Positions 61,301 through 62,404 of a DNA stretch of 64,000 nucleotides are shown here, one piece after another. Position 1 is the first letter of the stretch. Every line of letters starts with the position of its first letter. Position numbers and translations under genes: made by a program. The notes below the pieces were generated by a model. That model was not told where the DNA came from. It did not search any database and saw only the letters and a list, made by a program, of their open reading frames with translations. Source of the stretch: Actinomycetes bacterium (GTDB taxonomy: Bacteria > Actinomycetota > Acidimicrobiia > Acidimicrobiales > Acidimicrobilacustridaceae); contig JAKOVH010000031.1 of NCBI GenBank assembly GCA_029782145.1, positions 62,001-126,000 of the forward strand, given 5' to 3'.

Positions 61301-61360
61301 CGCAGGCGCTGTCGCACCCCCTGCGTACGGTTTGGCCCATGTGCTCGGCCTGCACCGATT

Positions 61361-61388
61361 TTGCGAGCCGCCTCGCGGCCGGTACAGT
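61361..61388 (+). promoter_or_regulatory. Promoter of tRNA-Ala
   Basis: TTGCGA (61361-61366) and TACAGT (61383-61388) are 16 bases apart, 13 bases before the tRNA. Confidence 0.65.
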
Positions 61389-61401
61389 CAACGATCCCTA
61401 C

Positions 61402-61477
61402 GGGGCCATAGCTCAGTTGGTAGAGCGCCTCCATGGCATGGAGGAGGCCGGGGGTTCAATTCCCCCTGGCTCCACCA
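61402..61477 (+). tRNA. tRNA-Ala (anticodon GGC)
   Basis: Acceptor GGGGCCA/TGGCTCC, D-loop GCTCAGTTGGTAGAGC, anticodon stem CCTCC/GGAGG with loop ATGGCAT, T-arm GGGGG TTCAATT CCCCC, and an encoded CCA end. It reads GCC. Two LAGLIDADG genes follow directly. Confidence 0.97.
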
Positions 61478-61485
61478 AGCAGCAC

Positions 61486-61968
61486 TTGCAGGAGGGACCA
61501 GTCTCCGACTGGTCCCTTGCAGGTTTTGTCGCCGGCGACGGCTACTTCAGCGTCACCCGGAAGCTACCGTCCTTCGCCGACGGGGACCCTCGGCTCCGGT
61601 TCGTCCTCGGTGTCCACGTGGCCCGGCGCGATCGGCCCTTGCTGGAAGCCCTGCGGACGAGGCTCGGCGTGGGGTCGATCAAGGACGCCGAGCCGAGACG
61701 GGCACACTGGCAGCCGACATCGACGTTCACGGTCAACTCGCTGCGCGCTCACCACGCCGCCGTCATACCGTTCTTCACCGCATTCCTGATCGGTGGCGAG
61801 AAGCGGCACCAGTTCGAGCTGTGGGTGCAGGCGATGCGCGCCTACGAGAGGCTTCATCCGACGCGGTACGGCAAGGGGCCATCGACCTGCAAGCGCCCCG
61901 GCTGCGAGCGCCCGGTGCGCGGCCAGGGCGTGTGCCGCATCCACTACTACGAGATCACGGGTCACTGA
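61486..61968 (+). CDS. LAGLIDADG homing endonuclease with C-terminal zinc motif
   Basis: 160 residues from the TTG start. The single LAGLIDADG motif is WSLAGFVAGDGYFSVTRKL near residue 8, with the catalytic Asp in G-D-G. The remainder (LRFVLGVHVARRDRPLLEALRTRLGVGSI, NSLRAHHAAVIPFFTAFLIGGEKRHQFELWV) matches the family's alpha-beta-beta-alpha core, consistent with a homodimeric enzyme. The tail CKRPGCERPVRGQGVCRIHYYE is a C4/C3H-type zinc motif common in phage nucleases. The frame is open upstream through the terminator and the tRNA, so the true start is uncertain. It overlaps the tRNA terminator and precedes a second LAGLIDADG gene by one base. Confidence 0.85.
   Translation: MQEGPVSDWSLAGFVAGDGYFSVTRKLPSFADGDPRLRFVLGVHVARRDRPLLEALRTRLGVGSIKDAEPRRAHWQPTSTFTVNSLRAHHAAVIPFFTAFLIGGEKRHQFELWVQAMRAYERLHPTRYGKGPSTCKRPGCERPVRGQGVCRIHYYEITGH
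61494..61516 (+). terminator. tRNA-Ala terminator, overlapping the homing-endonuclease frame
   Basis: GGGACCAGT (61494-61502), loop CTCCG, ACTGGTCCC (61508-61516), then TTGCAGGTTTT. It is a clean Rho-independent hairpin downstream of the tRNA. The first codons of the LAGLIDADG gene are read through it. Confidence 0.75.
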
Positions 61969-61969
61969 C

Positions 61970-62404
61970 ATGTCCTCGAGGATCCCGACGCTCGCGATGA
62001 CAGCACGTTCTCTCGCCGACCACCTGGGCGGCTTCGTCGCGGCTGAAGGCACCTTCTCTGTCCATCCGGACCGTCCGCGCGCCGACCGGACCCATCGGTC
62101 GGGTTTTCGGTTTGCGGTGGCGCTCGGAGCCAGGGACACCCCGAGCGTCGAGCTGCTGCAGGACTTCCTCGGTGTCGGGCGGGTCCGGCAGTACCCGCGC
62201 CGCAAGGAGCACTACGACGACGAGGTGGTGTTCGCGGTGCGGGCGCTCGACGAGCTGACCGGTGTCGTGGTCCCCTTCCTCGACGAGCACCTGCCTCCGT
62301 CGCACAAGCGCGAGCAGTACCTCGCCTGGCGCCAGCAGCTGCTGGCCTACGATGCCGAGCGCCCGGCTCGGGCAGGGTGGTCTCGGCGCCGACCAGAGCC
62401 GTAG
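61970..62404 (+). CDS. Second LAGLIDADG homing-endonuclease-like protein
   Basis: A 144-residue protein. The motif is LADHLGGFVAAEGTFSVHP with Glu as the acid (A-E-G). A typical second part follows: FRFAVALGARDTPSVELLQDFLGVGRVRQYPRR, and DELTGVVVPFLDEHLPPSHKREQYLAWRQQLLAYDAER. It is a diverged paralogue of the preceding protein in the same order of elements but without the zinc tail. The ATG lies one base after the upstream stop, so the two are one transcript. They could form a heterodimer (inference). Confidence 0.82.
   Translation: MSSRIPTLAMTARSLADHLGGFVAAEGTFSVHPDRPRADRTHRSGFRFAVALGARDTPSVELLQDFLGVGRVRQYPRRKEHYDDEVVFAVRALDELTGVVVPFLDEHLPPSHKREQYLAWRQQLLAYDAERPARAGWSRRRPEP

Follow-up and report, generated by a model that had tools for sequence, protein, structure and literature searches.

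The window analysed here, 64,000 nucleotides of Acidimicrobiales DNA (contig JAKOVH010000031.1 of assembly GCA_029782145.1), carries two LAGLIDADG genes at a tRNA-Ala(GGC) gene, and the locus raises the question of how such a pair is connected to the tRNA and what it does there. The sequence-only reading that was followed up had placed the pair directly behind the tRNA, with gene 1 starting within ten bases of the tRNA 3' end and the tRNA supplying the promoter. The features of the locus are:

61326 to 61331, plus strand: -10-like hexamer TACGGT, 7 nt before the ATG, a putative gene 1 promoter read from the sequence.
61334 to 61347, plus strand: degenerate counterpart of a LexA/SOS box, GGCCCATGTGCTCG in the window versus CGAACATGTGTTCG in the relatives with a box.
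61339 to 61968, plus strand: gene 1 (ORF1), 209 aa; start, tRNA and LAGLIDADG domain lie in one open frame in 12/12 intact copies.
61361 to 61388, plus strand: putative tRNA promoter TTGCGA-16 nt-TACAGT, read from the sequence, within the gene 1 coding sequence.
61402 to 61477, plus strand: tRNA-Ala(GGC) (ARAGORN; Rfam RF00005, 69.6 bits), nested in frame within gene 1.
61494 to 61516, plus strand: hairpin GGGACCAGTC-TCC-GACTGGTCCC on the 3' side of the tRNA, within gene 1 (fold -32.8 kcal/mol, z -3.9).
61970 to 62404, plus strand: gene 2 (ORF2), 144 aa, a second single-motif LAGLIDADG_1 protein (AEG; PF00961 E 2.2e-9; AlphaFold2 pLDDT 85; dN/dS about 0.4 between the closest pairs).

The stop codon of ORF1 ends at 61968 and the ATG of ORF2 is at 61970, and both proteins match PF00961 (ORF1 E 2.4e-10; 41.6 and 38.6 bits against a cut-off of 23.1). 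The description of two LAGLIDADG proteins one base apart, with GDG in ORF1 and AEG in ORF2, thus holds, and the acidic D/E residue of the motif is retained in all aligned members. By profile each ORF matches half of a meganuclease of the I-OnuI/I-SmaMI type (best E 4e-18, to I-SmaMI), and ORF1 is also similar to I-SmaMI by structure (Foldseek E 1.6e-8). AlphaFold2 models of both proteins display an alpha-beta-beta-alpha-beta-beta core like that of I-OnuI. Since there is one LAGLIDADG domain per gene, and the two together correspond to one two-domain meganuclease, ORF1 and ORF2 probably act as a heterodimer. Both are under purifying selection, with dN/dS of roughly 0.2-0.4 in close pairs, and the pair would presumably have homing endonuclease activity and cleave the tRNA locus. 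The gene 1 product starts with MCSAC, followed by the tRNA-encoded segment (about residues 22-46), the LAGLIDADG_1 domain (60-165) and a zinc-finger-like C-x4-C-x9-C-x2-H tail that falls below the Pfam cut-off. In its model, residues 15-50, including the tRNA-encoded segment, are disordered, while the LAGLIDADG core is folded.

The tRNA gene is uninterrupted at 61402-61477 according to both ARAGORN and Rfam, the last three nucleotides (61475-61477) being the encoded CCA, and no group I intron was found by Rfam in the window. An intron or intein setting is excluded by these two results, which bear out the earlier view that the tRNA is intact and that the pair is not intron-borne. In a pattern scan this was the sole tRNA-Ala(GGC) detected in its own genome, and in the 24 genomes scanned the tRNA of the locus was the only clear tRNA-Ala(GGC) match per genome. 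One genome, G247, gave no match in the scan; the tRNA there is severed by the contig end. The G3-U70 identity pair is present in 66/66 tRNAs compared. In the window, leuS lies upstream of the tRNA on the opposite strand, and a methyltransferase-like gene and rsfS (minus strand) follow the pair. The genome has one such LAGLIDADG pair. The -10-like TACAGT and the TTTTGCG element of the putative tRNA promoter also occur at empty sites of the same family.

Of the 397 genomes of the order, about 10 gave relatives in searches with the protein and with alignments, and eight more genomes with relatives belong to other orders of the class. The genomes sampled elsewhere in the phylum gave weak LAGLIDADG_1 matches only. 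Named records carrying relatives are mostly Acidimicrobiia or actinobacterial MAGs. All of the 19 relatives whose contig shows a tRNA are located at tRNA-Ala(GGC), and in one further genome the contig starts within the matching tRNA 3' arm. The link between the pair and this tRNA, as proposed earlier, is far beyond chance. Most of the weaker LAGLIDADG_1 matches that were checked fall within 23S rRNA genes that carry group I introns.

The gene order leuS - tRNA-Ala - rsfS is common, and in many genomes the stretch behind the tRNA shows no sign of the pair. The comparison of tRNA-Ala loci suggested by the sequence-only reading gives such empty sites also within one genus, so the lack of empty sites that would have spoken against that reading is not observed. 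In this genus the pair is absent from G346 and present in G262, and their 73-nt tRNAs are identical. G298 and G102, another pair from one genus, have the downstream gene in common. The element resembles free-standing homing endonuclease genes (HEGs) in lacking an intron or intein and in that its locus occurs both occupied and empty, but it is not a separate gene beside its presumed target gene, as ORF1 encloses the tRNA. Downstream of the tRNA the empty sites have no conserved sequence in common, so a target centred on the tRNA 3' boundary, which the sequence-only reading had favoured, appears less likely than a cleavage site inside the tRNA gene. Trees of the relatives are poorly resolved, and horizontal transfer is neither shown nor excluded by AU tests in which host-like groupings were not rejected (p 0.11-0.47). 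Carriage by phages was considered as well and rejected, as scans of IMG/VR gave no relative. A tRNA-targeting integrative element was also considered and excluded: there are no att repeats, no second tRNA end occurs in the window or downstream in 18 occupied loci, and no integrase is among the Pfam matches of the two genes and of the gene that follows them.

When it comes to the start of gene 1, the frame does not begin just behind the tRNA. It can be followed back across the tRNA as far as a conserved ATG or GTG located 60-75 nt upstream, which opens the gene 1 frame in every intact copy (ATG 61339 in the window). The segments that make up this part of the gene vary in length, the upstream segment being 60, 61, 63 or 75 nt, the tRNA 73, 74 or 75 nt and the leader 26-89 nt, and their sum is always a multiple of three. 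If the copies were independent, the chance of keeping the frame in all twelve would be (1/3)^12 = 2e-6, a value that overstates independence because the copies are related by descent; re-dealing the upstream lengths among the copies gives p 0.015. G083 and G489 use another tRNA reading frame, and indels on both sides restore continuity. Most copies have an N-terminus of the form [MV]CSxC, and the signature start-TGY-N6-TGY (start-Cys-x-x-Cys) is found in 16/19 occupied versus 2/47 empty loci (Fisher 1.5e-10). Its cysteine codons vary between TGT and TGC, and the second cysteine is absent in G083. The two empty loci with the signature, G045 and G013, look like relics. The comparison indicates that gene 1 starts upstream and encloses both the tRNA and the tRNA promoter, so that the pair is not merely placed behind the tRNA, and gene 1 would be translated through the tRNA.

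An alternative, though an unlikely one, is an ordinary free-standing HEG pair. ORF1 would then use a weak or non-canonical start codon located where the tRNA ends or immediately behind it, the open frame through the tRNA would be incidental, and transcription would come from the tRNA promoter or from an upstream SOS promoter. Openness alone means little, since frame 0 is free of stops from -63 to +45 in 22/46 empty loci as well (frame 2 in 4/46), and this is as the ordinary pair would have it; the retention of the frame in all twelve intact copies despite indels in three segments is not. The window further has a TTG at 61486, 8 nt after the tRNA, which could serve as a start in this genome, but in 7/12 intact copies no ATG, GTG or TTG occurs between the tRNA and the LAGLIDADG motif, and a non-canonical codon after the tRNA as the sole start is disfavoured by the frame conservation. 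The broken copies G102 and G262, moreover, have lost start codon and frame together. A LexA box by itself could account for the conserved ATGTGTTCG, yet the start and the CxxC remain where the box is gone.

This box overlaps the start codon of gene 1. A perfect GAAC-N4-GTTC is found there in 8/12 intact copies, all with the start codon inside GAAC-[A/G]TGT-GTTC and seven of them reading CGAACRNRYGTTCG, and none is found in the window. As a candidate LexA site it matches the LexA consensus of Streptomyces, tCGAAC-N4-GNNCGa (PMC9380542), and that of Bacillus, CGAAC(n)4GTTCG (PMC4551915). A box is also present in one empty, relic-like locus. The box is missing from the window copy and from its congener, as well as from G300 and several decayed copies. 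As the start codon and the codons for Cys2 and Ser3 overlap the box, part of their conservation may be regulatory. Start and CxxC persist without the box in G000, G001, G300, G538, L048 and G006, which argues that the box is not the only reason for the conservation of these codons. The putative LexA/SOS control of gene 1 is probably ancestral, the box having been lost in the window genome.

Nearly all occupied loci have a hexamer of the form [TC]ANNNT ending 6-7 nt before the start codon, which suggests that the gene 1 mRNA is leaderless. A sigma-70 consensus scan saw no promoter at the gene 1 start in the window, so the hexamer at 61326-61331 is a putative promoter. The proposal that the tRNA supplies the promoter fits poorly with a gene that starts upstream with its own -10-like box, has a LexA box in most intact relatives and encloses the tRNA promoter. 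The motif TGTCRCACC, about 29 nt upstream of the start (around 61310-61318 in the window), is present in 5/19 occupied loci and in no empty locus.

We consider it likely that the locus holds a split HEG pair of the I-OnuI type in which gene 1 contains the sole tRNA-Ala(GGC), with ancestral SOS control and repeated decay. The pair occupies the locus of the only tRNA-Ala(GGC) found in the genome, and the comparison of copies shows gene 1 beginning about 60 nt upstream and staying in frame across the tRNA's putative promoter and its full length as far as the LAGLIDADG domain. It would be transcribed from its own promoter, probably as a leaderless mRNA. With a LexA box on the start codon, as in most intact relatives, gene 1 is probably silent until DNA damage releases it, and release would coincide with active RecA-dependent recombination. 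The tRNA would be made from its own promoter inside gene 1. RNase P and tRNA 3' processing of the gene 1 transcript would yield tRNA and destroy the mRNA, keeping the enzyme level low. The enzyme presumably cuts tRNA-Ala(GGC) loci without the element, whereupon repair would copy the whole unit including the tRNA, and by enclosing an indispensable tRNA the element would be shielded from clean deletion. More tentatively, and with some doubt, it could be regarded as a natural SOS-triggered cleave-and-rescue element, a split meganuclease whose subunit 1 is translated through the only tRNA-Ala(GGC) gene, so that the same DNA encodes a tRNA the cell cannot do without as well as about 24 residues of an enzyme attacking loci that lack the element.

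Decay of the element is seen in G001, G102, G262, G456, G538, L048 and as a stub in G006. G001, from the same genus as the window genome, has most of ORF1 deleted. A remnant in G298 seemingly consists of the last ~20 codons of ORF2 (a weak profile match, E 0.016, in the right place). These at least seven decayed or remnant copies, and the further relics of the upstream signature (G045, G013, G298 and G049), would fit an ancient Acidimicrobiia element that is being lost everywhere and is now immobile, as would the fact that transfer is not demonstrated by the trees. We find it quite unlikely that the element is such a relic only, as twelve copies have intact ORFs under purifying selection, and carriage is very sparse with many clean empty sites. 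That the pair no longer homes and has been domesticated, for instance as a DNA-binding protein under SOS control that acts on the leuS - tRNA-Ala - rsfS region, is improbable: WhiA, which carries a LAGLIDADG fold (PMC3984707), offers a parallel, and purifying selection, vertical-looking sister pairs within genera and the SOS box in most intact copies would agree with it, but both subunits have the catalytic acidic residue, and sparse carriage, in about 10 of the order's 397 genomes, together with repeated decay suits a selfish gene better.

In four decayed loci, L006/L044 (G001), L048, L005/L046 (G102) and L019/L051 (G262), ORF1 is broken and ORF2 is open; the reverse was never clearly seen. 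This could mean that the cost of the pair lies in gene 1 or that gene 2 is useful by itself.

The split HEG pair proposed here shares with the two-domain meganucleases I-OnuI, I-SmaMI and I-LtrI the profile and Foldseek match and one acidic residue per LAGLIDADG motif. It differs from them in having two genes with one motif each, in residing in a bacterial chromosome and not in a mitochondrial intron, and in its additional parts, namely the CxxC N-terminus, the segment encoded by the tRNA and a zinc-finger-like tail at the C-terminus. The closest other relatives found in the phylum are the LAGLIDADG_1 proteins of bacterial 23S rRNA group I introns; unlike these, the pair has no intron, and the host gene is a tRNA. 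In the archaeal integrases of the SSV type, attP is a piece of a tRNA inside the int gene, so that there too a protein-coding sequence overlaps tRNA sequence. These, however, combine a tRNA 3' part with an integrase, while here the tRNA is complete, there is no integrase Pfam match and no tRNA end is repeated downstream. T4 SegB and other free-standing HEGs home without an intron, and in T4 expression is restrained by RNA structure and RNA processing (PMC2988022). SegB is likewise a free-standing HEG in a tRNA region, but it is a GIY-YIG enzyme encoded between phage tRNA genes with an ordinary start, whereas here the tRNA lies inside the HEG reading frame and the start often has a LexA box. 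Synthetic Cleave-and-Rescue drives couple a nuclease with a functional version of a gene that the organism needs (PMC7951863). The present element also has a nuclease physically joined to a working indispensable gene; it differs in being natural, and cleavage of the tRNA locus is here an inference only.

No tRNA-HEG fusion of this kind turned up in the open-access papers searched, and no earlier description was found of a complete tRNA gene read in frame within a protein gene in many species and in two reading frames. The arrangement sets tRNA maturation against translation on one transcript, and suggests a way in which a selfish gene could make its own removal costly. It also provides a candidate for a homing endonuclease gated by LexA. 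Genes of this type may go unnoticed, since ORFs overlapping a tRNA tend to be discarded in annotation.

Some further observations concern the tRNA, its flank and other LAGLIDADG genes. The hairpin at 61494-61516 is possibly a tRNA terminator or a translational brake; most relatives are without it. G300 (L023) has a strong hairpin, CAACGGCGCCGAC-TTCA-GTCGGCGCCGTTG, between the tRNA and the LAGLIDADG domain, read in frame like that of the window. The window tRNA (61402-61474) differs at 7/73 positions from its nearest family relative (L056-L084 and L171-L188 compared). The differences are paired stem changes with G3-U70 retained, and most of the family is identical. The congener of the window genome, in which the HEG pair is broken, has a near-consensus tRNA-Ala(GGC). 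Self-protection by an altered tRNA sequence was considered and is not established, as tRNA types also differ among empty genomes of other families. The contig CAMDCC010000123.1 (L052), binned as Bifidobacterium breve, carries an Acidimicrobiia-type ORF2 and is probably from a mislabelled MAG. In G067 (L007), two intron-like insertions with LAGLIDADG genes are found close together in one 23S rRNA gene.
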